64,000 nucleotides of DNA from Cypionkella psychrotolerans (GTDB taxonomy: Bacteria; Pseudomonadota; Alphaproteobacteria; Rhodobacterales; Rhodobacteraceae), in the NCBI RefSeq assembly GCF_001294535.1, contig NZ_LGIC01000086.1:372001-436000 (forward strand). The letters run 5' to 3'. This document shows, in pieces, positions 23,278 to 50,741 of the stretch (position 1 is the first letter of the stretch; each line of letters starts with the position of its first letter). The notes beneath the pieces were generated by a model that saw only the letters and a list, made by a program, of their open reading frames with translations, made no database searches and was not told where the DNA came from. The position numbers and the translations under genes were made by a program.

Positions 23278-24609
23278 ATGTCTTGGTATAGCAAGGTTGC
23301 GTGGAAGGAAGGGCTGTTCTTGCAGCCGCACCACTTGCAGCAAAGTGATCGCTATGTGGAAAAGCTGATCGAGGCGCGGGTGCGGCATGTCTCGCCCTAT
23401 CCTTGGGGTATCGAGGAGATGAAGGTCAACCGCGACCGTCTGCAACAGGGGCGGATTGAATTGGCGAGCGTGGCGGGGATTTTCCCCGATGGCACGCCGT
23501 TTGAAGCGCCGGGGATTTCGCCTTTGCCTAGGGCGGTTGAGGTGCCTGCGGGGTCGGATGGACTTGGCGTGTGGCTGACTTTGCCCGATCAGGTGATGAA
23601 CGGGCGCGAAGTGGCGATGGAGGCCGAGGCGGGCTCGCGCTATGTTCTGGGGGCCGAAACGGTGGCGGATAGCGCTTCGGCTTTGCGGTTAGAGCAGCAG
23701 ATTGAGGTGGCTTCGCCTCGGTTGGAGTTGGACATTCGGGCGACGGCGAAGCCCGGCTATCAGTGCATCAAGATCGCGCGGATCGTGGAAGTGCGCGACA
23801 ATGTGGTGATTTTGGATGATGCGTTTCCGCCGCCTTTGCTGACGATTTCGGCGCATGGCGTGGCTTTGGGCTGGCTGGATCGGGTGATCGGCTGGGTGGA
23901 GACCAAGCTGGACAGTTTGGCGCGCTATGCGGCTGACCCTTCGGCGGCGGGCGGGTTGCAGGCGACGGATTATTTCATGTTGCTGTGTTTGAACCGTCAG
24001 ATCAACGTGCTCAGGCATTTGCGGCAGAGCCGATATGTGCATCCTGAGCGGCTGTATGAGGAATTGCTGCGGTTCTCGGGTGAGTTGTGGACGTTTGATC
24101 AAGATAAGCGCTTGGCTCCGCCCTATGACGCCTATGACCATGCCGATCTGAAGGGATCGGTAGAGCCTGTCGTGCGAGATATTCAGCGGTTGTTGAGCCG
24201 TGATGTGGGCCGGGCGACGCGGTTGGATTTGGTGCAGGTGCGGCAGAATTCCTATCTCGCGCAGGTGCCGGATCGCAACCTGTTCCGCGATGCGACGTTT
24301 GTGGTCGAGGTGGAGAGTTCGCGGGCTTTGACGCTGGTGCAGCAGCAGTTTCCTTTGTTGTGCAAAGTCGGGCCGAACACCCGGATGTCGGAGATTGTGA
24401 ACAACAACCTGCCGGGGATCGAGTTGATCCATATTCCGACGCCTCCCCGGCAGATCCGGGCGGTATCGCGCAATGTGTATTTCATTCTGGAGAAGAACTC
24501 GCCGCTTTGGCGGGAGTTTTCGACGGCCCCCGCGATTGGGATGCATTTTGCGGGGGATTGGCCTGATCTGAAGATGGAGTTGTGGGCCATCGTGGAGACG
24601 AAGGTATGA
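23278..24609 (+). CDS. tssK: Type VI secretion baseplate protein TssK
   Basis: Baseplate subunit of 443 residues that links the baseplate to the TssL/TssM membrane complex. The N-terminus MSWYSKVAWKEGLFLQPHHL with QQSDRYVEKLI is diagnostic, as are FMLLCLNRQINVLRHLRQ and the C-terminal LIHIPTPPRQIRAVSRNVYF. Start ATG at 23278 with GAGG six bases upstream; the open frame reaches back to 23077 but that part is the divergent promoter region. It is the first gene of the type VI cluster and overlaps tssL by four bases. Confidence 0.97.
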   Translation: MSWYSKVAWKEGLFLQPHHLQQSDRYVEKLIEARVRHVSPYPWGIEEMKVNRDRLQQGRIELASVAGIFPDGTPFEAPGISPLPRAVEVPAGSDGLGVWLTLPDQVMNGREVAMEAEAGSRYVLGAETVADSASALRLEQQIEVASPRLELDIRATAKPGYQCIKIARIVEVRDNVVILDDAFPPPLLTISAHGVALGWLDRVIGWVETKLDSLARYAADPSAAGGLQATDYFMLLCLNRQINVLRHLRQSRYVHPERLYEELLRFSGELWTFDQDKRLAPPYDAYDHADLKGSVEPVVRDIQRLLSRDVGRATRLDLVQVRQNSYLAQVPDRNLFRDATFVVEVESSRALTLVQQQFPLLCKVGPNTRMSEIVNNNLPGIELIHIPTPPRQIRAVSRNVYFILEKNSPLWREFSTAPAIGMHFAGDWPDLKMELWAIVETKV

Positions 24610-26309
24610 GCGGCAGCGGCGATGGCAAAGACAAGACCGTCATTGGCGGGATGGGGATGCCGTCGCCGTTGCCGGGGGGGGTGAACCCGATGCCGGGTGG
24701 GAAGCGGCAGGTCAGCCCGAATGAACGCACGGTGATTGGTGGCGCGCTGCCGAGGGCGGGTGGTGCGTTTGGGCCGGGCGGGTTTGGGCCGCAGGGTGGG
24801 ATGCCTCCGGCCAGTTCGCCGGGGTTTGGCGGCGATACCGATGCTTGGGGCGTGCCGGCGCCAGCGCCTGCTGGTGGGGGTCAGGGTGGGTTTGCACCGA
24901 TCCCGCCGGCCTCGACGCATCCGGGGGTGAATAGCCCAGGCTTTGGTGGGCAGCCGTTTGGGCAACAGCCTGCACCACGGCCAGTGGCGGGGGCGTTTGC
25001 GCAGCCGGATCAGTTTTTTCCGGATGCTTCCACCGCTCAACCGACGAATTACGCGAATACCGGGCCGAAGATTGATCTGCGTAAGGCGTTGGTGGCCAAG
25101 GGTTTGGGCGCGGGGGGGCCGAAAAGCCCGATGCTGGCGGCGGCGGCTAATCTGTTGATTTTGTTTGGACGCTTGCGGACTCAGATGGTCGAGATGGAGG
25201 CGGTTCCATTGATGGAATACGTCACCCGCGAGATTGAGGGGTTTGAGGAGAACTGTCTGAAAGGTGGGGTGGACGCGCATCAGACTCAGGTGGCGAAGTA
25301 TCTGCTGTGCGGCACGGCGGATGATATCGTGCAGAATATCCCCGGCACGGATCGGCATTTGTGGATTCAATATTCGATGGTGGCGCGGTTTTTCAATCGG
25401 CGCACAAGCGGCGTTGGGTTCTTTCAGGAAGTTGAGAAGGCGTTGCAGGCCCCGGCGCAGAATTTCCAACTGCTGGAATTGGCGATGACCTGTCTTAGCC
25501 TTGGGTTTGAGGGGCAGTATCGCTCTGCCCCCAATGGCGCGGTGGAATTGGCGCGGGTGCGGGGGATGATTTATGACTCGCTGCGCCGGGTGCAGAACCG
25601 TCCGGACGACGATATCTCGCCGCGTTGGCAGCCTGTTATGGTGGGCGGGCGGCGACGGTTTGGCGGCACGCCGCTGTGGGTGATCGGATCGGTACTGGGG
25701 GTGGTGCTGATGGGGGCTTACTTTGGCCTCTCGACGCTGATCGCACAGGAGGGCTCGGTGGTGTCGCAACGGCTGTTGTCGCTGACGCCGACCTCGAAGA
25801 TTTCGCTGGTGCGGGCGGTGGCGTTTACGCCGTTGGAAGTGGTTCCGGTGACCGAAAGCAGCCAGTTGGACCGCCTGCAACAGAAGATGAAGGACGATAT
25901 CGCCAGCGGCTTGGTGAAGGTCGATATCAAGGGTGATTTCATCTTTATCCGCGTCAGCAATGCGGCGCTGTTTGCCAGTGGCAAGGCAGAAACCAAGCCT
26001 GAATTCAATGAGTTGGCGGCACGAATCACAGCGGCTTTGGATAAGGAACCGGGGCCTGTTTTTGTCTGGGGCTATACCGATAACGTGCCAATGTCGGGGC
26101 GCGGGCGGTTCAAGAACAATCACGATCTGTCGCAGGCGCGCGCCGAAGCGGTGCAAAAGGTGCTGGCGGTTGGCATGACCGACCCCACTCGCTTTGAGGT
26201 TGAAGGCAAGGGCGAGGCCGAGCCGATTGGCGACAATACCACCGATGATGGGCGCGGCGCGAATCGTCGGGTGGAAATCATGATCAAGCGGGAAGAGACT
26301 TTGCAATGA
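24606..26309 (+). CDS. tssL: TssL (DotU) with N-terminal TVIGG motifs and C-terminal OmpA domain
   Basis: Inner-membrane core protein of 567 residues. A Gly/Pro-rich leader (1-150) carries two copies of TVIGG: DKTVIGGMGMP (Thr11) and ERTVIGGALPRAGG (Thr42). The cytoplasmic DotU domain follows (about 150-345), then one membrane helix (about 355-377, LWVIGSVLGVVLMGAYFG), then a periplasmic OmpA-like peptidoglycan-binding domain (about 446-565) with GYTDNVPMSG, LSQARAEAVQKVL and GANRRVEIMI. Known for Agrobacterium: TssL is phosphorylated by PpkA on an N-terminal threonine that recruits the FHA protein; Thr11 and Thr42 are candidates here (inference). The start overlaps the tssK stop (ATGA). Confidence 0.96.
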   Translation: MSGSGDGKDKTVIGGMGMPSPLPGGVNPMPGGKRQVSPNERTVIGGALPRAGGAFGPGGFGPQGGMPPASSPGFGGDTDAWGVPAPAPAGGGQGGFAPIPPASTHPGVNSPGFGGQPFGQQPAPRPVAGAFAQPDQFFPDASTAQPTNYANTGPKIDLRKALVAKGLGAGGPKSPMLAAAANLLILFGRLRTQMVEMEAVPLMEYVTREIEGFEENCLKGGVDAHQTQVAKYLLCGTADDIVQNIPGTDRHLWIQYSMVARFFNRRTSGVGFFQEVEKALQAPAQNFQLLELAMTCLSLGFEGQYRSAPNGAVELARVRGMIYDSLRRVQNRPDDDISPRWQPVMVGGRRRFGGTPLWVIGSVLGVVLMGAYFGLSTLIAQEGSVVSQRLLSLTPTSKISLVRAVAFTPLEVVPVTESSQLDRLQQKMKDDIASGLVKVDIKGDFIFIRVSNAALFASGKAETKPEFNELAARITAALDKEPGPVFVWGYTDNVPMSGRGRFKNNHDLSQARAEAVQKVLAVGMTDPTRFEVEGKGEAEPIGDNTTDDGRGANRRVEIMIKREETLQ

Positions 26310-29300
26310 AGTGGGTAAAGCTTGCGCTGGTTCTGATCGGGTTTTTGGCGTTTTCCGCCGTGGTCTGGTTCGCGGGCCCGCTGATTGGATTCGGCGAGTC
26401 GCATCCGTTTGATCCGGTTTGGGTGCGCGCACTGATCATTGGTTTGCTGGCGCTGGTGCTGCTGGTCTGGGGGCTGATTGCGTTTTTGCGGCGACGCAAG
26501 GGCAGTGCTGCGCTGGAAAAGGCGATTGTCGTCGATGTGCCTACGGGCGATGGCCGCGAGTTGGCCAGTCGGATGACGGCGGCTTTGAGCACTTTAAAGA
26601 AGTCTGGTAATTCAAAGACTTATCTCTATGATATGCCTTGGTATGTGATCATCGGGCCGCCGGGTTCGGGCAAGACCACGGCCCTGGTGAACTCTGAGAT
26701 TAAGTTTCCACTGTCAGGCCAGCAGGGCGGCTTACAGGGCTTTGGTGGGACTCGATACTGCGATTGGTGGTTTGCCGAAGACGCGGTGATGATCGACACG
26801 GCGGGGCGGTATACGACTCAGGATAGTGATGGGGGGACGGATAAGGCGTCTTGGACCAGCTTTCTGAATTTACTGAAGAAAAACCGACCGAAGCAGCCGA
26901 TCAACGGGGTGATCTTGGCGATTTCGGTGGCCGATCTGATGAACGCGGGGCCGGACAAGATCACTGCCCACGCCGAGACGATCCGGGCGCGGTTGGGGGA
27001 AATTCACGAAACGTTGAAGGTGGATTTCCCGGTTTATGTGATGTTCACCAAGGCCGATCTGATCGCGGGGTTCCGCGAGTATTTCAGCAGCTTTGCGGCA
27101 GGGCGGCGGAAGAAGGTTTGGGGGGCGACGTTCCAGACCGAAAGCCGGAAGGAGCAGACTTTTGACCGGGTTGCGGGCGAGTTTGATGCGTTGGTGGCGC
27201 GGTTGTCGGATGAGGTTATTGACCGTCTGTCGGAAGAACCCGATGGCGTGAACCGGATCGCGATTTTCGGACTTCCCGGCCAGATGGCGATGTTGAAGGA
27301 CGAGGTGGAATCGTTCCTGCGGCAGGTGTTTGAGCCGACGCGGTATAAGACGAGCGCGATCTTGCGCGGGTTCTATTTCACATCCGGCACGCAAGAAGGC
27401 ACGCCGATTGATCAGGTATTGGGCGCGATGAGCCGTAGCCTTGGCGTGCAGGCGCAGCTTTCGGGCAAGGGCAAAAGTTTCTTCCTGCACGATTTGTTGA
27501 CCAAGGTGATTTTTGGCGAACAGGGCTGGGTTTCTTATGATCGCAAGGCGGTGCGGCGGGCGTCTGTGCTGCGAATCGGGCTGACCACGGCGATGTTTTT
27601 AGCCTCGGCTGGCATCTTGGGGGCTTGGGGGTATAGCTATCTGAACAATCGCACGCTGGTGGCCTCGGCGCAGGCGGCGATGGCGGATTACGAGTTGGCG
27701 GCGACCGAAGATTTGCAGGCGATTGAGGTGAAGGACACCGATTTTCTGCGTGTGAGCAATGAGTTGAAGCTGCTGCGCACAATGCCCTCGGGGTTCGAGT
27801 CGCCCGAGGAGCCGGAAGGCGATTGGACGCGCGGCTTTGGGCTATCGCAGCAGGGCGCGATCCGGCAGGCGGCGCGAGATTCTTACGCGCAGGCGTTGGA
27901 GCGGCTGTTGCGGCCGCGGCTGGTGTTGCGGGTGGAAGGCCAGTTGCAACAGTTCGTTTTGGCCAATGAGCCGATCCCGATTTATGAAACGTTGAAGGTG
28001 TATAAGCTGCTCGGCGGCGCTGCACCTGCGCCGCAGGATGATCTGGTGAAGACGTGGTTCCATGATGATTGGGAGCAGGTCTTGTTCCCCGGCATCAACG
28101 AGGAACCCGCGCGCGATATGCTAAACAAACATCTGGCGGCGATGTTGGAGCTGGATGATACGACTGCGCCGACGGTGGAATTGAACGCCGATCTGGTCGC
28201 AAAAGCCGAGGTGATTTTGGCCCGGATGTCGGTAGCGGATCAGGCCTATTCTTTGATCGTGGCTACCGCGCCTGTATCTGGTCTGCCGGATTTCAACGTG
28301 GTCGAACGCGCAGGGCCGGATGCGCGGCTGGTGTTTGAGACGGTGGACGGCTCGGACCTTGGCACGCTGACGGTGCCGGCTTTGTATACCTATGCCGGGT
28401 TCAACGATTTCTTCCTAGAGCAGTTGGCGGCGGTTGCGCATAAGCTTGAGACTGAGCAATGGGTTATGGGCGAACAGGCAGCGGCGGCTAAGGTGGATGA
28501 GCAGTTGTCGCGGTTGGGGCCGCAGTTGCTGGCGCGGTATCGTGAGGATTATCTGGCGGCTTGGGATGCGGTGTTGTCGAACATCAAACTCGCGCCGATG
28601 GCGGCGGATAAACCGGCTTATATGGCTTTGTCAGCGGCATCCTCGCCGACCACTTCGCCGATTTTGAAGCTGGTTGAGGGGATCTCAGCGGAGACGAAAC
28701 TGACGCAGCCGTTGGTGCCGGAAGGTGCCGTGGATAAGGCAGCCGGAGAGGCCGATGCGGTGGCGGGGGCTATTTCTCAGGCGGGCAGCGATGTGACGCA
28801 GATGATCGCGAGCCGGACCTCTGGATTGCAGCGGATTGGCCTTGATATAGCTCTGGCGGCAGGAAAATCGCAGAAGCGGGCGGGGGCGGCTGCGGGGGCT
28901 GGGCCGACGATTCCGGGCGCGGATATTGAGGCGCAGTTTGCGGAATATCACGCCTTGTTGGAGGGCTCGCCGGGGACGCGGCCGATTGATGCTTTGCTGA
29001 ACTCGTTGGGGGCTATTCAACAGGGTTTGGTGATTGCGGCGGGGTTCAATCAGGCGGAGGCGAATGCGCAAATTCCGGCGCTGATTGGGCAGTTGAAGAC
29101 GGCGGCTTCACGGCTGCCGCCGGAATTGTCGCGGATGGTGGGCGAGGCGGTGGATAATTTTGAGGGCGATGCAGCCTCAACGGCGGTGGCGCAGATCAAC
29201 GCGGATTTGACCTCGCAGGTGACGGCGGTGTGCGAGGGGATTGTCGACGGGCGCTATCCGTTCAGCAAAAGCCCGGCACGGCAGGTGCCTTTGTCGGAGT

Positions 29301-29881
29301 TTGCGCAACTGTTCGCGCCGGATGGCGTGCTGGACCGGTTCTTCAACGCCAATTTGGCGATCCACGCCAATATGGGCGCGGGGGATTGGACGTGGCGCGA
29401 TGACAGCCCGCTGGCGAAGAAGCTGTCGTTGCAGAGTTTGCGGCAGTTTCAGAAGGCGGCAGCGATCCGGGATGCGTTTTTTCCGGGGCGATCTCCGGTC
29501 GTCAAGTTGGACATAACGGTGAACCAGATCACTGCGCATGACCGGATCAAGCAATCGATTCTGGTGATTGACGATCAGCCGATCCAGATGCGGCAGGCGG
29601 GAAATACGCCGGTTACCGTGACGTGGCCGGGTGGGGCGGGAAATACTTCGGTGCAGTTGTTGCCCGAAATGAACAACCGCGAAAGCCAGATCATGTATCA
29701 AGGGCCGTGGGCGTTGTTGCAGTTCATCCGCGATGGCAATCCGCGGCAGATTGGTGACGTGATGCAGGTGGATTATGTGATTGGCGGGCGCAATATCACC
29801 TATGAAATCCGGGTGAATGCGTTGGTCAACCCGTTCAACATGGCGGAACTGCGTGAGTTCCGCTGCCCGACAGGCCTGTGA
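26306..29881 (+). CDS. tssM: Type VI membrane complex protein TssM (IcmF)
   Basis: Inner-membrane protein of 1191 residues that with TssL forms the trans-envelope channel. Two N-terminal helices (about 4-24 and 37-58), a cytoplasmic GTPase-like domain with Walker A GPPGSGKT at 117-124 and MIDTAGRYTTQDSD, the IcmF-related segment, a third helix (about 424-445), then a long periplasmic domain ending in the TssM C-terminal beta domain. The intact P-loop suggests nucleotide binding. It overlaps tssL at its start (ATGA) and tagF at its end (TGATG). Confidence 0.97.
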   Translation: MKWVKLALVLIGFLAFSAVVWFAGPLIGFGESHPFDPVWVRALIIGLLALVLLVWGLIAFLRRRKGSAALEKAIVVDVPTGDGRELASRMTAALSTLKKSGNSKTYLYDMPWYVIIGPPGSGKTTALVNSEIKFPLSGQQGGLQGFGGTRYCDWWFAEDAVMIDTAGRYTTQDSDGGTDKASWTSFLNLLKKNRPKQPINGVILAISVADLMNAGPDKITAHAETIRARLGEIHETLKVDFPVYVMFTKADLIAGFREYFSSFAAGRRKKVWGATFQTESRKEQTFDRVAGEFDALVARLSDEVIDRLSEEPDGVNRIAIFGLPGQMAMLKDEVESFLRQVFEPTRYKTSAILRGFYFTSGTQEGTPIDQVLGAMSRSLGVQAQLSGKGKSFFLHDLLTKVIFGEQGWVSYDRKAVRRASVLRIGLTTAMFLASAGILGAWGYSYLNNRTLVASAQAAMADYELAATEDLQAIEVKDTDFLRVSNELKLLRTMPSGFESPEEPEGDWTRGFGLSQQGAIRQAARDSYAQALERLLRPRLVLRVEGQLQQFVLANEPIPIYETLKVYKLLGGAAPAPQDDLVKTWFHDDWEQVLFPGINEEPARDMLNKHLAAMLELDDTTAPTVELNADLVAKAEVILARMSVADQAYSLIVATAPVSGLPDFNVVERAGPDARLVFETVDGSDLGTLTVPALYTYAGFNDFFLEQLAAVAHKLETEQWVMGEQAAAAKVDEQLSRLGPQLLARYREDYLAAWDAVLSNIKLAPMAADKPAYMALSAASSPTTSPILKLVEGISAETKLTQPLVPEGAVDKAAGEADAVAGAISQAGSDVTQMIASRTSGLQRIGLDIALAAGKSQKRAGAAAGAGPTIPGADIEAQFAEYHALLEGSPGTRPIDALLNSLGAIQQGLVIAAGFNQAEANAQIPALIGQLKTAASRLPPELSRMVGEAVDNFEGDAASTAVAQINADLTSQVTAVCEGIVDGRYPFSKSPARQVPLSEFAQLFAPDGVLDRFFNANLAIHANMGAGDWTWRDDSPLAKKLSLQSLRQFQKAAAIRDAFFPGRSPVVKLDITVNQITAHDRIKQSILVIDDQPIQMRQAGNTPVTVTWPGGAGNTSVQLLPEMNNRESQIMYQGPWALLQFIRDGNPRQIGDVMQVDYVIGGRNITYEIRVNALVNPFNMAELREFRCPTGL

Positions 29882-30507
29882 TGCTGGCGCTGTATGGCAA
29901 ACATCCGTCGAAGGGAGATTTCATCGGCGGCGGTTTGCCGGTTCAAGCGTGGTTGGAGGGCTGGCTGGATTCGGCTTTGGCCGAGGCGCGGCATGGCTTG
30001 GATGCTGAATGGGAAGGCGTTTGGGGATCGGCGCGCCCCTTGCGGTTCTGGATTGGGCCGAGTGTTTGGGGTGAGGCTTTGGCCGGGGTGCTGGGGGCGA
30101 GTGCCGATAAGGTCGGACGACGGTATCCGTTGCTGATCGCGGGGTTTGGCGCAGAGTGCCCACCCTGCCCGGTGATTGACCCGGCACAAGACTGGCACGG
30201 TGCAGTTGAGGCGAAGCTGGTCGAAATGCTTGCGGGTGAGACTGCCGATCTGAACGGGTTTGCAGCCCCCTGCCCTACCGCGATGCCTGCTGGCCCGCCG
30301 GAGTTTTGGGCGGCTCGGCCCGGTGCGGATGTGGTGGGGCTGCTGGAGGATATCGCGACCACAGATCACCACCGCGCCAGCCACAATCGCAGTTATTGGT
30401 GGATCGCGGGGGATGACTTTGGCCATTCTCAGGTTTGGGCGGGTGAGGGTTTGCCCTCGGGCCATGTACTTGCGTGGTTTTTGCGCGGGTATGCCGAAAA
30501 TGCTTAG
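29881..30507 (+). CDS. tagF: Type VI-associated protein TagF
   Basis: Cytoplasmic protein of 208 residues of the TagF family, recognised by LYGKHPSKGDFIGGGLP, then FWIGPSVWG and GRRYPLLIAGF. In Pseudomonas and Agrobacterium TagF represses secretion post-translationally, acting with or alongside the PppA phosphatase and the FHA protein. In Agrobacterium it is fused to PppA; here TagF and PppA are separate and adjacent, split by about 108 bases that include no gene. The ATG at 29881 overlaps the tssM stop; a GTG one codon earlier is less likely. Confidence 0.92.
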   Translation: MLALYGKHPSKGDFIGGGLPVQAWLEGWLDSALAEARHGLDAEWEGVWGSARPLRFWIGPSVWGEALAGVLGASADKVGRRYPLLIAGFGAECPPCPVIDPAQDWHGAVEAKLVEMLAGETADLNGFAAPCPTAMPAGPPEFWAARPGADVVGLLEDIATTDHHRASHNRSYWWIAGDDFGHSQVWAGEGLPSGHVLAWFLRGYAENA

Positions 30508-30615
30508 GCAGGTTGGGGCTAGGCAGTTGCATAGGTTTCCGCCTAAGCTGACCAAATGTTTTCAGCCCCCGGATTTTCAGCCTTGGGGGCAAGGTTGTTT
30601 CAAATGGGTGGGTCG

Positions 30616-31359
30616 ATGATCGAGGCTCCATTTCAATTCGAGACCGGGGCCGCGACCGATACGGGCCGCGTGCGCGATCACAATGAGGATAGTTTTTTGA
30701 CGCTGCCCGAGGCTGGGGTTTGGGTGGTGGCCGATGGTATGGGCGGGCATCACGCCGGGGATTTTGCCAGCAAGACGATTGTGGAAAGTGTGGGGTCTTT
30801 GGGCCGCCCGGTTTCCGCGCCGGATTTGCAGGCGCGGTTTATGGATCGGTTGCTGCGGGCGCATCAGTTGATTCAGGATCAGTCGGCGCTGTTGAATGGC
30901 GCGACCGTGGGGGCGACCTTGGTGGCACTGCTGGCGTTTGATCAGCATTTTGCCTGCGTATGGTCCGGGGACAGCCGGATTTATCTGCTGCGGGCGGGGC
31001 AATATACGCAGGTCACTGTGGATCATACCGAGGTCAATGAATTGCTGCGCACCGGGGCGATCACGGCGGAGCAGGCGCTGACGTGGCCACGGCGCAATGT
31101 GATCACACGGGCGATTGGGGTGCATGAGAAACCTCAGACGGATGAGCGTTCGGGTGGGCTGGTGGATGGCGATGTGTTTTTGTTGTGCTCGGATGGGCTA
31201 ACGGAGCATATCGAAGATCGCGAGATGGCCGAGGCTTTGGCGCAGTTTGCGCCCCAAGCCGCCTGCGATGCTTTGGTGCAGCTGACCTTGCAGCGCGGCG
31301 CAAAGGATAATGTGACGGTGGTGGTGGTGCGGGTCGCTGCTGCGAGGGCCTGGTCATGA
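30616..31359 (+). CDS. pppA: PP2C Ser/Thr phosphatase PppA
   Basis: PP2C-type metal-dependent phosphatase of about 247 residues that reverses PpkA phosphorylation and lowers secretion in known systems. Motifs: TDTGRVRDHNEDSFL, VVADGMGGHHAGDFAS, SGDSRIYLLR, CSDGLTEHI and the final AKDNVTVVVVR, so all metal aspartates are present. Start placed at the ATG at 30616 with GGGTGGG just before it; ATGs at 30604 and 30556 are in frame, the last giving a 267-residue product. The stop overlaps the ppkA start (ATGA), which keeps kinase and phosphatase translation tied. Confidence 0.93.
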   Translation: MIEAPFQFETGAATDTGRVRDHNEDSFLTLPEAGVWVVADGMGGHHAGDFASKTIVESVGSLGRPVSAPDLQARFMDRLLRAHQLIQDQSALLNGATVGATLVALLAFDQHFACVWSGDSRIYLLRAGQYTQVTVDHTEVNELLRTGAITAEQALTWPRRNVITRAIGVHEKPQTDERSGGLVDGDVFLLCSDGLTEHIEDREMAEALAQFAPQAACDALVQLTLQRGAKDNVTVVVVRVAAARAWS

Positions 31360-33971
31360 GTGACGCCTCGGACAAAGGCCCGAACCATGCAACCACGGTG
31401 TCTTCCGGCACTTTGATCATGGGCACCTATGAGATTGAGCGACTGATCAATTCGGGCGGCATGGGTGAGGTGTATCGCGGCCGCAATATCCACAATGACG
31501 AGCCTGTGGCGATTAAGATTGTGCTGCCATCGTTGGCGCATGATCCGAAGATCGTGGCTTTGTTCCAGAAGGAAAGCACCACGCTGTCGCGGCTGAGCCA
31601 CGAGGCGATTGTGCGCTATCATGTGTTTACCGTCGATCCGACCATCGGGCGGCCTTGTATGGTGATGGAGTTCGTCTCGGGTACTTCGATGTCGGACCGG
31701 ATTGAGCAAGGGCCGATGCCAGTCGACGATGTGCGGGTGATGCTGCGGCGGGTGGCCTCTGGCTTGGACAAGGCGCATCGGGCCGGGGTGGTGCATCGCG
31801 ATTTGTCGCCGGACAATGTGATTTTGGAAGACGGCCATGTTGAACACGCCAAGCTGATCGACTTTGGCATTGCGAAAAGCACTGCTTTGGGGGCGGGGAC
31901 GCTGTTGCAGGGCCAGTTTGCAGGTAAATTCAACTGGGTGTCGCCGGAACAGTTAGGCGCGTTTGGCGGCACGGTCGATGGGCGGTCGGATATATACTCG
32001 CTGGCTTTGGTGACGGCGGCGGCGAGCAAGGGTGAAGTACTGCCGATGGGTGCGTCGATTGTCGATGCTGTGGGCAAACGCTCGGGCGTGCCGGATTTAA
32101 CCGGGGTGGATGAAGGGCTGGTGCCGCTGCTGTCATGGATGTTGCAGCCTGATCCGGCTTTGCGGCCTGAGAGCATGGCGAAGGTGATGGCGGCGGTGGA
32201 CAACCCGTCTCTGGTGCCGCAGATTGCTGCGCCTGCGCCGAAAGCACCTGATCCGAACCGCACGGTGATTGGCGGGGCTTTGCCGATCCAAGTGCCTAAG
32301 CTGGTTCCAGTCGCGCCCGTTGAGGCTGCGGTTTCGGTGGCTCCGGTATCTGTGGCGCCTGTAGTGAAAACCTCGGCTCCGGTTGGGGCGACGATGATTG
32401 CGGCTGTGACGCAGGCCCCGGAAAGCGAAGATGTCAGTCCGTTTGGGGCGCCGGGGGTGGCGGCGGTTGCACGGCACGTGCAGGTCGAGCCGCTGGTGGT
32501 GAAGAACAGCAAAAGCGGCCTGATCGCGGTGTTGGCGCTGTTGGCTTTGGGCGGCGGGGCTGCGGGGGCGTATTTCGGCGGGGTGTTTGACAGCAAAGTG
32601 GTGCCTGTGGCGGGGGAGACTCAGGCAGAAGCCGATGCGCGGGTGAAGGCTGAAGCGGAAGATAAAGCCGCCGCTGAACAGGCCACAGCCGAGGCGAAAG
32701 CGACAGCGGATGCCGCAGCGGCGAAGGCGGTCGAGGACGCGGCGGCTGTTAAGGCTGCGGCAGATGCCAAAGCCGCAGAGGATGCGGCCAAGCAGGCGGA
32801 GGCTGCAGCGCAGAAGGCGGCCGAGGAGCTTGCCGCACAAAAAGCCGCTGATGAGGTGGCGGCGCAGAAAGCGGCTGACGAGGCAGCGGCGCAAAAAGCC
32901 GCCGAGGACGCCGCAGCTCAGCAAACGGCGGCGCAGAAGGCTGAGGCGGATGCGGCGGCCAAGAAGGCTGCGGAGGCGCTTGCGGCGAAACAGGCGGCAG
33001 ATGCGGCAGCGGCGCAGAAGCTTGCCGAGGAAGCTGCGGCGCAAAAAGCGGCGGATGAGGCTGCGGCTAAGCAAGCGGCAGAGGCGCAAAGGCTGGCTGC
33101 CGAGGCAGAGGCAGAGGCACAAAGGCTGGCGGAGGAGGCTGCAGCTAAACAGGCTGCGGACGAAGCGGCAGCCAAGAAAGCCGCCGATGAGGCTGCGGCA
33201 AAGCAGGCAGCGGAGGCTGAAGTTGCCGCAGCGGAGGCTGCTGCACAAAAAGCTGCCGAGGAAGCCGCTGCGGCGCAGAAATTGGCGGATGAGGCGGCTG
33301 CGAAGAAAGCCGCAGAGGAAGCTGCGGCCAAGGCCGATCCGGTGGCGACGCAGTTGGCGTATCTGGCGGGCGTGCAGCCGCCGCTATGTGCTTTGGTGAC
33401 GCTGAAGGATGCCAAGGCCTCGGGCTTTGGGCTGGAGGGCTATACGGCGGACCCGGCGGCTTTGGCAGGGTTTGTGAAGGACTGGCAGGCGGCGACGCGG
33501 ACCACGCCGGACCTTGCGGTCCACCCGATCAACACCGCGCAATGCCCGCTGATTGAATTTGCCACCCACTACCCCGCGCCGGATGTCGATCCGCTGGCGG
33601 TGGTGATGCAAGCGACGGGGGAGGTGGTGAAAAGCGGCGCCAATGTCAGCGGCAAGGTCGAAGGGCTGGAGGGTCGAAATTTTGCGCTGTTCATCTTCTC
33701 GGAGGGCGGCGGGGCGACCAATCTGAAACCTTGGACCACGATGGGCAGCGATGGCACCGCCAGTTTTGAGTTTAACCTGACGCTGGAGGCAAATGCGCCG
33801 CCCGCACCGCAGATCCTGGTGGCGATGGTGACGGATAAGCCGTTGCCTGCGCTGGACAAGGTGCCTGCGGGGGTGACGGCGCAATCGCTGATGCCGTTCC
33901 TGGAAAAACAGTTGGAGAAAGCCGGGGTGAAACCGACGCTCAGCTTCGCCTATTTCCGGCTGGAGAACTGA
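31356..33971 (+). CDS. ppkA: PpkA-type transmembrane Ser/Thr kinase with long Ala-rich coiled coil
   Basis: Kinase of 871 residues that should switch on type VI assembly. Kinase domain about 20-290: glycine loop INSGGMGEVYRG, Lys54 in EPVAIKIV, catalytic loop HRDLSPDN (147-154; the usual Lys after Leu is Ser), DFG at 169-171. A linker holds DPNRTVIGGALP with Thr303, matching the TssL motif. One membrane helix lies at about 387-409. A near-continuous Ala/Lys/Glu/Gln heptad-like stretch follows (about 424-660), similar in style to TolA, then a folded C-terminal domain (661-871) with two cysteines (CALVTL and AQCPLIE) that could pair in the periplasm. Topology puts the kinase in the cytoplasm. 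It overlaps pppA; 121 bases separate it from vgrG. Confidence 0.95.
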   Translation: MSDASDKGPNHATTVSSGTLIMGTYEIERLINSGGMGEVYRGRNIHNDEPVAIKIVLPSLAHDPKIVALFQKESTTLSRLSHEAIVRYHVFTVDPTIGRPCMVMEFVSGTSMSDRIEQGPMPVDDVRVMLRRVASGLDKAHRAGVVHRDLSPDNVILEDGHVEHAKLIDFGIAKSTALGAGTLLQGQFAGKFNWVSPEQLGAFGGTVDGRSDIYSLALVTAAASKGEVLPMGASIVDAVGKRSGVPDLTGVDEGLVPLLSWMLQPDPALRPESMAKVMAAVDNPSLVPQIAAPAPKAPDPNRTVIGGALPIQVPKLVPVAPVEAAVSVAPVSVAPVVKTSAPVGATMIAAVTQAPESEDVSPFGAPGVAAVARHVQVEPLVVKNSKSGLIAVLALLALGGGAAGAYFGGVFDSKVVPVAGETQAEADARVKAEAEDKAAAEQATAEAKATADAAAAKAVEDAAAVKAAADAKAAEDAAKQAEAAAQKAAEELAAQKAADEVAAQKAADEAAAQKAAEDAAAQQTAAQKAEADAAAKKAAEALAAKQAADAAAAQKLAEEAAAQKAADEAAAKQAAEAQRLAAEAEAEAQRLAEEAAAKQAADEAAAKKAADEAAAKQAAEAEVAAAEAAAQKAAEEAAAAQKLADEAAAKKAAEEAAAKADPVATQLAYLAGVQPPLCALVTLKDAKASGFGLEGYTADPAALAGFVKDWQAATRTTPDLAVHPINTAQCPLIEFATHYPAPDVDPLAVVMQATGEVVKSGANVSGKVEGLEGRNFALFIFSEGGGATNLKPWTTMGSDGTASFEFNLTLEANAPPAPQILVAMVTDKPLPALDKVPAGVTAQSLMPFLEKQLEKAGVKPTLSFAYFRLEN

Positions 33972-34092
33972 ACGGGGGGCGGCTGCCAGCTTTTCTTGCC
34001 AGATTGCTGCGGCTTGATGTAACGTTGCAGGTATCCGGGGTTATTTTCCCCAGCCTGCCCGTTTTACGCCTATTTTTGAAAGCGATATCCAG

Positions 34093-35946
34093 ATGCCCAC
34101 GACCTTTTCCCAAGACAATCGCATCGGTCGGATGTTCACGCCATTGAAGGCGAACGACTTGGTGCTGATTGAATTTTCCGGCAGCGAAGCGGTGAACGCG
34201 ATCAGTCAGTTTCGCGTCAAGGCGCTGTCCGCCAAACCGATTTCAGAGATCGAGCCCTTGCTGGGCGAAGCGATTGCAGTTCAGATTGTCACCCCGCTGG
34301 GCGACGTGCGGGATTTTCATCAGATGGTGGATGCGATCCGCTATCTGGGGCCAGAGGGCGATCACCACATCTATGAGTTCGAACTGCGGCCGTGGTTCTG
34401 GCAATTGTCACGGCGGATCAATTACCGGATTTTCCACGAGGTGAACGTCGTCGATGTGATCCGAAAAATCGTTGATGAATACGGTAATTCTGATGTGGCG
34501 GGCTTTATTGACCTAACTGTCGGCAGTTTTCCTGAAATGGAATATGTCGTGCAGTACAACGAATCCGACATGGATTTCCTGTGCCGCCTGATGGAGCGTT
34601 TCGGGATCAACTACCATTTCCAGATGGAGCCGACGCGGCACACCTTGGTGCTGACCACCGGCGCGGATGCGTTCAGCGATGCCCCGGCCTCTGCGCGCGC
34701 GTTCAGCCCTTTGGGCAGCCGGGGCGATGCCACCGCAGAGCATTTCGATGCCTGGTCGCCGCAGCGGCAGTTGACCACGGGATCGGTGCGGCTGACCGAT
34801 TACAACTTCAAGACCGTCTCGGCGCAGATGGAGGTGACGCGCGAGAATTTGCGCGGTTTTGTCGGCGGAAATATGGAAAGCTTTGGCTATCCCGGCGTCT
34901 ATTTAACCCCCGGAGAAGGCAATCCGATTGCGCAGCGGCGTCTGGATGCCTACCGGATGGGCGATGCGACGGTGCGGGCGAACGGCAATGCAGCCAGCCT
35001 TGGCGCAGGGATGAAGTTTCAGCTTTCGGCGCATTCCGATGCTGGGCAGTTGGACGAATATGCCGTGCTGGCGGCGCAGCACTTTGTCTCAAACGGCACG
35101 TTCCGTTCGGGCGGGGGTGTGGCTGCGGACACCGCCTATCAAGGGGCTTACGTTCTGACGCGCAGTGCCAATCCGATTGCGCCACAACGCTTAACCCGGC
35201 CACCGCGCGTGCTGGGGCCACAGACGGCGGTGGTGGTCACCGGAGCCGAGGGCGACATTGACGAATTTGGCCGCATCAAGGTCAAGTTTTTTTGGGCACC
35301 TGACGAGGTGTCAATGTATTGTCGGGTGTCACAGATCTGGGGACAGGATGAATGGGGAACGATCTTTATCCCGCATGTCGACATGGAAGTGATCGTTGAA
35401 TTCCTAGACGGCGACCCGGATCAGCCCTTGGTGACGGGCTGTGTGTGGAACGAGAAAAATCGCCCGCAGATGCCGGACAACCACCTGACCAGCGGCTTTA
35501 AGACTGTGCGCAACAACCAGCTTTTCTTCTATGACACCGAGGGCAAGGAAGAAATCTACATCCGGGCGCAGCGGGATATGACACGGGTGGTGATGCATGA
35601 TGACAAATCCACCACCCACGGCAAACAGGTGCTGAAGATTGACGCCAGCAAAAGCGAAAGCGTGGGCGGCAGTTCTTCATCCTCGGTCGGCGGCGATATG
35701 TCTACCTCGGTCAGTGGCGCTGAAACCCATAGGGTGAAGGGCAGCCTGTCGATCGAATCAAAAGAGAAGATCGAGTTGAAAGTGGGGAGTTCCAGCATCA
35801 CCATTGATCAAACCTCGATCAAGATCAAAGCTTTGACGGTGGAGGTTGAAGCCACCGCCGAGTTGAAAACCAAAGCGGGGGCGATGGCCACGCATGACGG
35901 GGGGGCGATGATGGTGATCAAAGGCGTTCTGGTGACGATTAACTGA
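34093..35946 (+). CDS. vgrG: Type VI spike protein VgrG
   Basis: Trimeric spike protein of 617 residues at the tip of the Hcp tube. The gp27-like N-terminal half is seen in YVVQYNESDMDFLCRLMERF and the gp5/OB-fold in ITKVFF-like region around DEFGRIKVKFFWAPDE, then WGTIFIPHVDMEVIVEFLDG and DGDPDQPLVTGCVWNEKN. The last 120 residues form the repetitive beta-helix needle (SVGGSSSSSVGGDMST and onward) and end without an added effector domain. Start ATG at 34093. The gap before it has no gene and could hold a separate promoter, though none is clear. The stop overlaps the next ATG (TGATG). Confidence 0.96.
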   Translation: MPTTFSQDNRIGRMFTPLKANDLVLIEFSGSEAVNAISQFRVKALSAKPISEIEPLLGEAIAVQIVTPLGDVRDFHQMVDAIRYLGPEGDHHIYEFELRPWFWQLSRRINYRIFHEVNVVDVIRKIVDEYGNSDVAGFIDLTVGSFPEMEYVVQYNESDMDFLCRLMERFGINYHFQMEPTRHTLVLTTGADAFSDAPASARAFSPLGSRGDATAEHFDAWSPQRQLTTGSVRLTDYNFKTVSAQMEVTRENLRGFVGGNMESFGYPGVYLTPGEGNPIAQRRLDAYRMGDATVRANGNAASLGAGMKFQLSAHSDAGQLDEYAVLAAQHFVSNGTFRSGGGVAADTAYQGAYVLTRSANPIAPQRLTRPPRVLGPQTAVVVTGAEGDIDEFGRIKVKFFWAPDEVSMYCRVSQIWGQDEWGTIFIPHVDMEVIVEFLDGDPDQPLVTGCVWNEKNRPQMPDNHLTSGFKTVRNNQLFFYDTEGKEEIYIRAQRDMTRVVMHDDKSTTHGKQVLKIDASKSESVGGSSSSSVGGDMSTSVSGAETHRVKGSLSIESKEKIELKVGSSSITIDQTSIKIKALTVEVEATAELKTKAGAMATHDGGAMMVIKGVLVTIN

Positions 35947-36542
35947 TGGGCAGCGCATCTGACACCACTCCGCCCGTCACCATTGCGCCTGCACCGGGGC
36001 TGCGGGTGCAACTGGGGCGTCAGTTGTTCGGCACCATGCCGGAAATGGCGGATGACATTGTGGCAAGGCCGGGGGAAGGCGAGCATGTGTTCGACTTTTG
36101 CCGTCGCTTGCGGTTGGGGGAGACGCCGGAGGAAGCGATCTCGCTGATGGCCTTTGCTTTGCAGCCACGCCCTGCGGTGTGGTGGGGGCATGAATGTTTG
36201 AAGGCAGCACCAGAGCTGTTGACCGATCAGGACCGTGAGATGTTGGCGCTTTGCGAGGCTTGGGTGGCGGAACCGACCGAGCCCAACCGCTATCTGGCGC
36301 TGGATGCGGGGCTGCATGTGGCGGTGCGCGGGCCGGGGGCGTGGCTGGCACTGGCGGTGGGCTGGGCTTCGGGCTCGATGGCACCGGAAGGCCTGCCGCC
36401 CGCACTGGTTCCGATGTTTGCGATTGGGCGGGCGTTGAATGCGGGGGTGTTGACGGCACTGGCGCGGGTGCCGCAAGACAAGCGGCGGCGGATGCTGGAC
36501 CATTACGTTGGCATGGCCGAGATGCTGGCAAAAACTGTTTAA
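35946..36542 (+). CDS. DUF6931-like type VI-associated protein
   Basis: Protein of 198 residues, coupled to vgrG by a TGATG overlap. I place it in the DUF6931 group from memory of the pattern WWGHECLKAA, ALCEAWVAEPTEPNRYLAL, then GPGAWLALAVGWASGSMAPEGLPP. No signal peptide or membrane helix is seen. It has no catalytic motif I can name. Its position directly after vgrG, where adaptor/chaperone or cargo genes usually lie, makes an adaptor or structural accessory role plausible; no immunity-like partner follows, which argues against an antibacterial toxin. Confidence 0.75.
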   Translation: MGSASDTTPPVTIAPAPGLRVQLGRQLFGTMPEMADDIVARPGEGEHVFDFCRRLRLGETPEEAISLMAFALQPRPAVWWGHECLKAAPELLTDQDREMLALCEAWVAEPTEPNRYLALDAGLHVAVRGPGAWLALAVGWASGSMAPEGLPPALVPMFAIGRALNAGVLTALARVPQDKRRRMLDHYVGMAEMLAKTV

Positions 36543-36584
36543 GCCGCCTATCTTAGGTCTTGCCCCTGTTGGAATACCCCCGAA

Positions 36585-37841
36585 ATGAAACTGACCCTGC
36601 GGATTGAGAATTTGGATAGCCTGCCGGATGGCGGGCCGCTGGAGTTTTCGGCTGTGGCGCGCGGCTTTGAAGTGGGTCGCGATTCCGCGATGGATTGGAC
36701 GCTACCTGATCCGAACCGCCATATTTCCAGTCGGCATTTTGAGGTGACGTTTCGCGATGGTCAGTTCTGGCTGAACGACATTTCCACCAACGGCACGTTT
36801 ATCTATGGCGCGTCGATGCGGGTGTCGTCGCCCTTGGCGCTGAGCCATAATGAGCGCTTGCAGGTCGGACAGTATATCATCCGGGTGTTGGTGGTGGACC
36901 CGGCAGTCTCGGCCTTTGCAGCGCCGCCGCTGACCGCACCAGTGTCCGATCCGTGGAGCCTTGCGCCCAGCCCGTCGCCGATGCCGCAGTTTTCAACCAC
37001 GCCGCTGCCGCCGCCAACGCGGCCATCGCAGGCACTGGCCGGGCAGTTTGGCGATAGTTTCGTGGAAAACCCGCGGTCTGCGGCCTTTGTGCCGACCACG
37101 CCGCCGCAGAATGTGCCGATTGCCCCACTTATCAGCCCGTTGCCGCAAGCGGTGACAACGCCGCCTCCGGTGGTGAATGCGCTTCCGCCCGCCCCGCCTG
37201 CCTCTGAACCGTTTCCGCTGCGGCCCGTTCCCGCACAGATCGAGGCCCCGGCCGAGGCTTTGCCGCTGTTAGACGCGATCTGCAAAGGCGCTGGCTTGCC
37301 TGCGGGCAGTTTGTCGAAGGTGGATGTGGCGCAACTGGGCGAAGACATTGGCAAATCTTTGCGCATCGCCACCGAGCAAATGATGGCGCTGTTGGGTGCG
37401 CGGGCGGCTGCGAAGCAGTTTGTGAAAAGCTCTAGTCGGACAATGATCGGCGGAATCAACAATTCGCCGTTGAAGTTCAAGCCCAACGCCACCGAAGCGC
37501 TGACCACGATGTTTGCGCAGAAAACCGAGAGTTATTTGGGGGCGGTGGCGGCGTTTTCCCAAGGCTTTGATGACGTGAAACGCCACCAAACGGCGGTTTA
37601 TGCGGCGATGCAGCCTGCGCTGGCGCGGTTGCTGGAAGACCTTTCGCCTGAGTCGATTGAAGAACGCTCCACCGGTGGAATCATGTCCTCCAAAAAGGCG
37701 CGGGCTTGGGAATTGTTCGTGGAACGATGGGATGCCAAGACCCATCCCTATGAAAACGGTATGTTGGATGTGTTTTTGGCCTATTTTTCCGACGCCTATG
37801 ACGAAGCGGTGAAGTCCGCCACTCCGAAAAACGCCGGTTGA
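36585..37841 (+). CDS. Type VI FHA-domain protein (TagH/Fha)
   Basis: Cytoplasmic phosphothreonine-binding protein of 418 residues that relays the PpkA signal. FHA domain at about 1-105: GFEVGRDSAMDWTLPD, ISSRHFEV and NDISTNGTFI carry the conserved Gly-Arg, Ser-Arg-His and Asn-Gly phospho-recognition residues. A Pro-rich linker (about 110-220) leads to the TagH C-terminal domain, with SSRTMIGGINNSPLKFKP and SSKKARAWELFVERWD. In known systems phospho-TssL binds this domain. The ribosome site before the ATG at 36585 is weak. It lies 42 bases after the DUF6931-like gene. Confidence 0.94.
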   Translation: MKLTLRIENLDSLPDGGPLEFSAVARGFEVGRDSAMDWTLPDPNRHISSRHFEVTFRDGQFWLNDISTNGTFIYGASMRVSSPLALSHNERLQVGQYIIRVLVVDPAVSAFAAPPLTAPVSDPWSLAPSPSPMPQFSTTPLPPPTRPSQALAGQFGDSFVENPRSAAFVPTTPPQNVPIAPLISPLPQAVTTPPPVVNALPPAPPASEPFPLRPVPAQIEAPAEALPLLDAICKGAGLPAGSLSKVDVAQLGEDIGKSLRIATEQMMALLGARAAAKQFVKSSSRTMIGGINNSPLKFKPNATEALTTMFAQKTESYLGAVAAFSQGFDDVKRHQTAVYAAMQPALARLLEDLSPESIEERSTGGIMSSKKARAWELFVERWDAKTHPYENGMLDVFLAYFSDAYDEAVKSATPKNAG

Positions 37842-48333: not shown

Positions 48334-48360
48334 GGGTGCGTGCTTGCACGCACCCCTTTT
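48334..48360 (+). terminator. Rho-independent terminator of the type VI operon
   Basis: Stem GGGTGCGTGC (48334-48343) and GCACGCACCC (48346-48355) followed by CTTTTAT, 18 bases after the clpV stop. The two-base centre means the inner pair opens to a CTTG-type loop. It also separates the convergent peptidase gene. Confidence 0.85.
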
Positions 48361-50617: not shown

Positions 50618-50741
50618 GCCAACCTTGCCGGAATAAGCTGAAATACAATCTATGAACCAAGGCCAACCTAGCGCAGCGGGGATCAACTGGCCAGCGGCTC
50701 ACAAATTGCTAAACTTGTCTAAAATGGTCATCCTCAGTGCT

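Follow-up and report, generated by a model that had tools for sequence, protein, structure and literature searches.

Does one short threonine motif, written by a kinase and read by a forkhead-associated (FHA) domain, mark the parts of a type VI secretion system (T6SS) for assembly? The question is raised by a cluster of Cypionkella psychrotolerans (GCF_001294535.1, contig NZ_LGIC01000086.1, positions 372,001 to 436,000 of the forward strand; this whole stretch of 64,000 nucleotides is called the window below), in which a kinase (PpkA), a PP2C phosphatase (PppA) and an FHA protein (Fha) are all encoded within the T6SS genes and on the same strand as TssK to TssM. The motif occurs as DKTVIGG (Thr11) and ERTVIGG (Thr42) in the N-terminal leader of TssL, as NRTVIGG (Thr303) beside the kinase domain of PpkA and as RTMIGG (Thr286) in the C-terminal domain of Fha, and a search of 17 T6SS proteins of the window with T[VIM][IV]GG returned these four sites only. 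All four had been placed correctly by a first-pass annotation made from the sequence alone, which read them as a likely phosphothreonine code for Fha, and that interpretation is supported by the sequence comparisons described here. We put at roughly 70% the probability that PpkA writes one portable phosphothreonine tag on TssL, on Fha and on itself and that the FHA domain of Fha reads it.

The pattern T-Φ-Φ (Φ, hydrophobic residue) was found to be kept across most of the family and, for TssL and Fha, across much of the phylum; near relatives keep the sites, and of the 27 family loci in which all three proteins could be scored, 22 combine a TssL motif with a linker motif in PpkA and Thr at the Fha site. 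The annotation had proposed one shared TVIGG motif, and as sites these are conserved, but the GG proved to be a local variant of T-Φ-Φ-x-(P/G). Codons matching T-V-I-G-G turn up at 12 places in the 5.08 Mb of the genome, three of them within tssL or ppkA (expectation ~0.01 for the two genes together; P ~2e-7 by post hoc arithmetic).

Samples and motif scoring

For the family set, 295 genomes of the same family were searched, and 70 of the 72 matches above 110 bits were retrieved with their neighbourhood (the window itself and one contig fragment were left out). For the phylum set, PF20232 and PF09850 were each searched in 299 genomes and 60 of the 89 DotU matches listed were taken as TssL regions, leaving out the window, G294 (already in the set), eight matches from a genus that is heavily sampled and a further 19, most of which scored low. 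The third set comprised 80 named Pseudomonas loci, with P. aeruginosa not among them. The strict TssL motif was T[VIL][VIFLM], and 1000 shuffles were made. Leaders were started at the first Met and may therefore take in untranslated upstream sequence; those below 25 amino acids were dropped (3 of 71 family loci, window included), which left 68 scorable. Where the stretch retrieved held no kinase, as for 28 phylum loci, the locus was classed by hand as plus (8; kinase on the same contig within ~30 kb), minus (12; none near) or ambiguous (8; unclear), and the ambiguous loci, three of which have the TssL motif, were excluded from Fisher tests.

The TssL leader

In TssL of the window (residues numbered from the ATG at 24606) both threonines of the leader stand in a T-V-Φ context. 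Across the family the strict motif was present in 60 of 68 leaders, against a shuffled mean of 3.9 (maximum 11), and with one leader per 60%-identity cluster in 8 of 11 against 0.8. The leaders diverge in length and sequence, yet retain the motif as an island, which in one family T6SS lineage reads DPFAEPDDTDKTVIRPNPGG or a close variant and in the lineage resembling the window reads TVIGG, TVFGG or TVIRP, often in two copies and with a TWLGG relative. Leaders of the window-like lineage commonly carry the motif more than once, with five copies in L050, and the place of the first window copy is similar to that of the N-terminal DKTVIRPNPGG site in the other family lineage. The density of T-Φ-Φ was 83 in 7327 amino acids of TssL leader and 2 in 9817 amino acids of proline-rich Fha linker.

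Presence of the motif followed that of the kinase: in the phylum set it was found in 24 of 34 PpkA-plus and 1 of 11 PpkA-minus leaders (Fisher 9e-4), in 14 of 19 and 1 of 10 cluster representatives (p 0.0017) and, with short leaders counted, in 24 of 40 and 1 of 12. The lead of the sole PpkA-minus match (L158) contains no Met, and the TVL there probably precedes the start. Pseudomonas-like TssL reads DRTQFMPxPGG, which the strict pattern misses; RT[QP]F was present in TssL of 79 of the 80 named Pseudomonas loci.

Eight scorable family leaders were without the strict motif (L045, L095, L096 and L097-L101), and L097-L101 read TRI or TRV at that place. These five belong, with L188, L184, L185 and L191, to a recurrent T6SS lineage in which GRTRIRP, GRTRVRP or ERTRIRL replaces TVI in TssL while Fha retains T-Φ-Φ (TVV, TMV, TII, TLI, TVM, TVI); the TssL form is a variant of the tag with a charged +1 residue. 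Separately, most leaders of L036, L038 and L040-L048 carry an extra (D/N)TWLGG after the TVFGG or TVIGG copies, apparently a form of the tag with Trp.

Fha and the loci without kinase

The FHA domain of the window aligns to Rad53 FHA1 at E 4e-7 and has the Arg, Ser, His and Asn of the phosphate pocket (R32, S48, H51, N69). The pocket Arg was Arg in 46/46 family and 38/38 PpkA-plus domains and Ser or Ala in 7/7 PpkA-minus domains; the pocket Ser was present in 46/46, 36/38 and 0/7, and the Asn in 41/46 and 29/38, with a gap in 7/7 of the PpkA-minus domains.

In the C-terminal domain, the column of Thr286 was Thr in 85 of 93 Fha domains of at least 120 amino acids (50/50 family, 28/31 phylum PpkA-plus, 5/5 ambiguous, 2/7 PpkA-minus), that is in 83 of 86 outside the kinase-less loci, and was the only Thr column so conserved; it was also invariant against 35 Pseudomonas Fha. 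The residue lies a few positions before N-x-P-L-K in T6SS_FHA_C (NNSPLKF in the window), and T..ENNPLK was found in Fha of 78 of the 80 named Pseudomonas loci. The annotation had listed this site with a hedge, as a possible third partner; it turned out to be the best conserved of all and, mapped by position, is probably a known Fha phosphosite (see Comparison with known systems).

The seven Fha loci without kinase have lost the phosphate pocket and for the most part lack the TssL and Fha tags. A second joint absence lies inside the family of the window: in L096, TssL reads NDPKVVLPNPGG (Thr to Lys), the FHA-like domain is without the Arg and the Ser and the Thr site of Fha is lost, and PpkA was not found on its (short) contig, nor was a close counterpart found in the genome, whose one kinase match lies elsewhere. 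Where there is no kinase, tag and reading pocket are mostly absent as well, which points to a single phosphorylation code for assembly of the machine.

An assignment of all family loci without a kinase in the stretch to a PpkA-less class was rejected, since 15 of these 18 have a PpkA-like match elsewhere (E 3e-43 or better); in G188 and G263, two of the other three, a shorter kinase with T-V-Φ at its N-terminus lies ~20-24 kb away from TssL, and G221 (L096) is the only family locus still without PpkA.

Agrobacterium-like loci (L166, L168, L171; TssL LPT[VI]VEL) have no C-terminal Fha Thr site. L169 and L172, each the second T6SS of a Pseudomonas-like genome, have EKTVLLDRDG in TssL and resemble the Agrobacterium-like use of TssL alone.

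The kinase and its own motif

The catalytic residues of PpkA are intact, the catalytic Asp and Asn and the DFG Asp being invariant columns in a 16-kinase alignment; the transmembrane segment was predicted by hydropathy. Between the kinase domain and the membrane, T[VIL][VIFLM] was found in 27 of 44 family linkers against 5.6 in shuffles (maximum 12), mostly 12-32 residues past the kinase domain. Several kinases without a linker copy carry a clear one in the N-terminal extension (for example MNERTVIGG in L170 and MSDDDKTRIS in L174), and L042 and L044 have several copies there. For a combined count, [DEN]x(0-2)Tx[VIF] was scored in the linker or N-terminal extension, excluding the 15 residues next to the kinase domain on its N-terminal side, where a GT-Φ-I segment is probably structural; the exclusion changed the counts little (family 38/43 either way, phylum from 19/31 to 17/31), and the corresponding shuffled values were 10.3 (maximum 20) for the family and 4.6 (maximum 12) for the phylum. 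Among 74 PpkA the tag was in the linker only in 33, in the N-terminal extension only in 19, in both in 3 and in neither in 19. Named Pseudomonas PpkA with enough sequence had T-Φ-Φ-x-P within 160 residues past the kinase C-lobe in 74 of 79, typically as EATLVRPLP. The earlier suggestion that the kinase carries its own tag gains strength from this recurrence of the motif on one side of the kinase domain or the other.

The Thr of the activation loop resembles the tag, with GTLLQG in the window and ETIVG, GTLIG, ATVIG or ETLIG elsewhere; T[VILM][VIFLM] was found in the loop of 34 of 43 family kinases. Readable loops of the named Pseudomonas contain DDRTQF in 74 of 78, and loop and TssL leader share RTQF in 73 of 78. 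The tag thus looks like a copy of the autophosphorylation site of PpkA, which would account for the specificity of the writer.

For three pairs of loci, two different T6SS clusters lie ~14 kb apart in the same genome (L184/L179, L185/L180, L191/L174), and the only kinase match listed nearby is at one end, beside L179, L180 and L174; the paired clusters may share one kinase.

Proposed mechanism

According to the preferred reading, PpkA would phosphorylate the Thr of T-Φ-Φ-x-(P/G), usually preceded directly by an acidic residue, at Thr11 and Thr42 of TssL, at Thr286 of Fha and at its own Thr303, and, given the likeness of the motif to the activation-loop Thr, would probably do so by recognizing in each a copy of the site at which it phosphorylates itself. 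Fha would bind these marks through its FHA domain: those on TssL would hold Fha at the membrane complex, that on Fha would join Fha molecules to one another and that on the kinase would couple Fha to active PpkA, so that several copies on several partners could build an assembly site by avidity. As a single phosphothreonine contact is weak in A. tumefaciens (for the Kd, see below), multivalency would be useful, and the leader copies would supply it; PppA would be the likely eraser. We infer phosphorylation at each of the window threonines, self-tagging by PpkA and multivalent assembly from comparison of sequences.

A broader version, to which we give slightly less than even odds, is that a self-tagging phospho-network nucleates T6SS assembly, PpkA copying its activation-loop site onto anchor, reader and itself, possibly as a phase-separating seed. 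One FHA domain would then link kinase, scaffold and membrane complex multivalently, and the number and place of tags (TssL leader, PpkA N-terminus, PpkA linker, Fha C-terminal domain) would change freely in evolution.

Alternative explanations

Several observations weigh against a common tag on all three proteins. For TssL, some PpkA-bearing loci are without the tag: six PpkA-plus phylum loci with leaders below 25 amino acids have none, L139, L143 and L190 have none either, and seven others match a looser pattern only. For PpkA, the tag is in neither place in the 19 of 74 given above; the phylum linker alone is not enriched (4/14 against 2.1), representatives at 60% identity gave 13/23 against 4.4 in shuffles (maximum 11) and 4 of 9 other, lower-scoring kinases, a weak control, match the loose pattern. 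The likeness of the activation loop is weak in the phylum (6/18 by the strict pattern), and several soluble-type kinases (for example L146, L166 and L169) have no such loop Thr although their TssL has TVI. For Fha, the site is Ser or Ala in L169 and L172, which do have the TssL tag, and Ser in L151; a TssL-trained profile gave its top rank to the Fha Thr in 12/50 family and 13/28 phylum sequences, where chance would give 2.6 and 1.4, and a control profile with shuffled columns reached 36/50 on one occasion, so that the Fha site is a variant context (TMI before NNPLK) and not a copy. In an AlphaFold model of Fha (36 sequences; mean predicted local distance difference test score, pLDDT, 57) the FHA domain is confident, and Thr286 falls in a stretch of low confidence (pLDDT below 50 at residues 265-331). 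Finally, L096 apart, the Fha loci without kinase appear to form a single T6SS lineage, and the joint absence may represent one or two evolutionary events.

Only the TssL and Fha sites might be phosphorylated, the PpkA motif outside the activation loop acting as a docking or pseudosubstrate element that is neither phosphorylated nor read by Fha. A docking or autoinhibitory element would likewise be substrate-like and lie beside the kinase domain, no phosphosite at the place of Thr303 is reported in the accessible parts of the PpkA literature surveyed, and a review gives PpkA autophosphorylation on a conserved serine; a pseudosubstrate would, however, be expected to lose the Thr, which the motif retains, along with its two hydrophobic residues, at either of two places, and in A. 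citrulli a kinase-dead PpkA shows reduced binding to Fha (PMC12607579), which makes this explanation unlikely.

Much less probable still is a linear motif that works without phosphorylation, as a hydrophobic anchor to which TssK, TssA or some other partner binds and in which the Thr is incidental. Classical FHA selectivity concerns the +3 position, where the tag has G, R, E or Q among others, and the hydrophobic +1/+2 pair is well kept alongside the Thr, with G or P common at +4. Such an anchor would not be expected to be mostly absent where PpkA and the phosphate-binding Arg and Ser of the FHA domain are absent, nor to recur in the kinase activation loop, and in A. tumefaciens T14A abolishes TssL phosphorylation and Fha binds the phosphorylated peptide and not the unphosphorylated one (PMC3953482).

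Low-complexity drift, by which G/P-rich leaders share functionless T-V-I strings, can hardly account for the data: TssL leaders and PpkA linkers are indeed G/P/A/Q-rich, and the second TssL copy and the PpkA copy share, as had been noticed at the outset, a ten-residue run with one or two differences, but same-residue shuffles gave 3.9 of 68 against 60 of 68, the proline-rich Fha linkers hold the two motifs only and the motif is a conserved island in otherwise diverged leaders.

Feature coordinates and neighbouring genes

The cluster is encoded on the + strand in the order TssK, TssL, TssM, TagF, PppA, PpkA, VgrG, a DUF6931 protein, Fha, TssA, TssB, TssC, Hcp, TssE, TssF, TssG and ClpV; the features discussed are collected in Table 1. 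No TssJ-like protein was noticed among the window open reading frames scanned, to which no TssJ model was applied, and this fits the 'TssJ-less' label of the first-pass annotation. Past its predicted transmembrane segment, PpkA contains at residues ~420-690 a long repetitive Ala/Glu/Lys/Gln-rich stretch (EAAAKQAADE-like), probably a periplasmic helical spacer. The DUF6931 protein (35946-36542, E 6e-42), in the interval between VgrG and Fha, is possibly an effector chaperone or adaptor, and a 774-residue protein with an M23 peptidase domain (48359-50686, - strand) is encoded convergently to clpV where the cluster ends.

Table 1. Features of the T6SS cluster, in positions of the window
Feature	Position	Strand	Evidence or remark
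TssL, DotU with OmpA-like C-terminus and long N-terminal leader with two candidate tags	24606..26309	+	PF09850 7e-51, PF00691 6e-13
Candidate tag 1, DKTVIGG, TssL Thr11 (codon 24636)	24630..24650	+	
Candidate tag 2, ERTVIGG, TssL Thr42 (codon 24729; longer run ERTVIGGALP)	24723..24743	+	
PppA-type PP2C phosphatase, presumed eraser	30556..31359	+	PF00481/PF13672
PpkA, Hanks-type Ser/Thr kinase with juxtamembrane linker and C-terminal region past the predicted transmembrane segment	31356..33971	+	PF00069 1e-33
PpkA kinase domain, residues 25-272, presumed writer	31428..32171	+	HRDLSPDN and DFG in translation
PpkA activation loop (DFG to SPEQ, residues 169-199), GTLLQG, Thr182, tag-like	31860..31952	+	
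Candidate tag 3, NRTVIGG, PpkA Thr303 (codon 32262; run NRTVIGGALP), between kinase domain and membrane	32256..32276	+	
Candidate further tag, ATMI, PpkA Thr346	32388..32399	+	ATVI in linkers of L032 and L034, both among the nearest relatives; weak alone
Fha: FHA domain, low-confidence linker, T6SS_FHA_C	36585..37841	+	PF00498 2e-12, PF20232 3e-48
FHA domain, pocket R32, S48, H51, T68, N69, presumed reader	36669..36869	+	alignment with Rad53 FHA1
Candidate tag 4, RTMIGG, Fha Thr286, within T6SS_FHA_C	37437..37454	+	

Comparison with known systems

The precedent on which the first-pass annotation had leaned holds: in A. tumefaciens, PpkA-dependent phospho-Thr14 of TssL, in DLPpTVVEI, is bound by Fha through R30 and S46 with a Kd of 0.54-1.58 mM, and binding of the 8-mer phosphopeptide is lost in the FHA R30A/S46A mutant (PMC3953482). 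As proposed for the window, a PpkA-dependent Thr near the N-terminus of TssL, in a T-V-V context, is there read by the FHA domain of Fha. A. tumefaciens TssL has one such site, whereas that of the window has two candidates, and Fha of A. tumefaciens is without the corresponding C-terminal Thr, which the window Fha has; no PpkA self-tag is described in the accessible part of PMC3953482. The T14 region was called not conserved in distantly related species (PMC3953482); taken as a short motif it is largely conserved.

Thr362 of P. aeruginosa, Thr438 of S. marcescens (whose phosphopeptide was undetected without PpkA; PMC6082577) and Thr640 of A. citrulli are Fha threonines under PpkA control, like the proposed Thr286. 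The latter lies 132 residues from the C-terminus of Fha, and in most of the 78 scorable of the 80 named Pseudomonas loci the distance is 134-135. P. aeruginosa Fha1, which we take to be 497 amino acids long, would have T362 at 135 residues, and from position and conservation the Thr286 column is probably the T362 phosphosite. No scorable Fha in a 20-genome sample of one genus had Thr at residue 362; of L302-L309 only L302 was scored.

In A. citrulli, Fha T640 is needed, but Fha foci require the activity of PpkA and not T640 (PMC12607579), and PpkA and Fha both form condensates. A kinase tag read by Fha would explain foci that need PpkA activity and not Fha phosphorylation, and the tag is offered as a candidate for the kinase-dependent event by which Fha is recruited even when it is not itself phosphorylated (PMC12607579); TssL tags or the active conformation of the kinase could explain part of the result.

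TagH of the V. cholerae type, from systems with neither PpkA nor PppA, has the same architecture of FHA domain and T6SS_FHA_C as the seven kinase-less loci described here (PMC8993066), in which the pocket Arg and Ser are replaced in 7/7 and the Fha Thr in 5/7. The window, which has PpkA, Thr286 and R32, is not of this type. V. cholerae TagH is reported to be unphosphorylated, yet its S38 and K54 are reported to be needed (PMC8993066), so that its FHA domain still does something.

StkP is, like PpkA with the proposed Thr303, a bacterial membrane kinase phosphorylated in the linker adjoining its kinase domain (PMC12077195). It belongs to a different organism group and pathway. We know of no StkP tag that is shared with other partners of a reader.

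In the accessible literature, targets of PpkA have been described species by species, as Fha in P. aeruginosa and S. marcescens and as TssL in A. tumefaciens and V. alginolyticus, and neither a shared motif nor a PpkA self-tag is stated in the titles and abstract openings of the open-access papers that text searches listed (subscription papers being outside this scope). The short motif described here would unite these targets, predicts from the RT[QP]F of 79 of the 80 named loci a TssL target in the H1-like systems of Pseudomonas and offers a sequence test of whether a given T6SS is under phospho-control.

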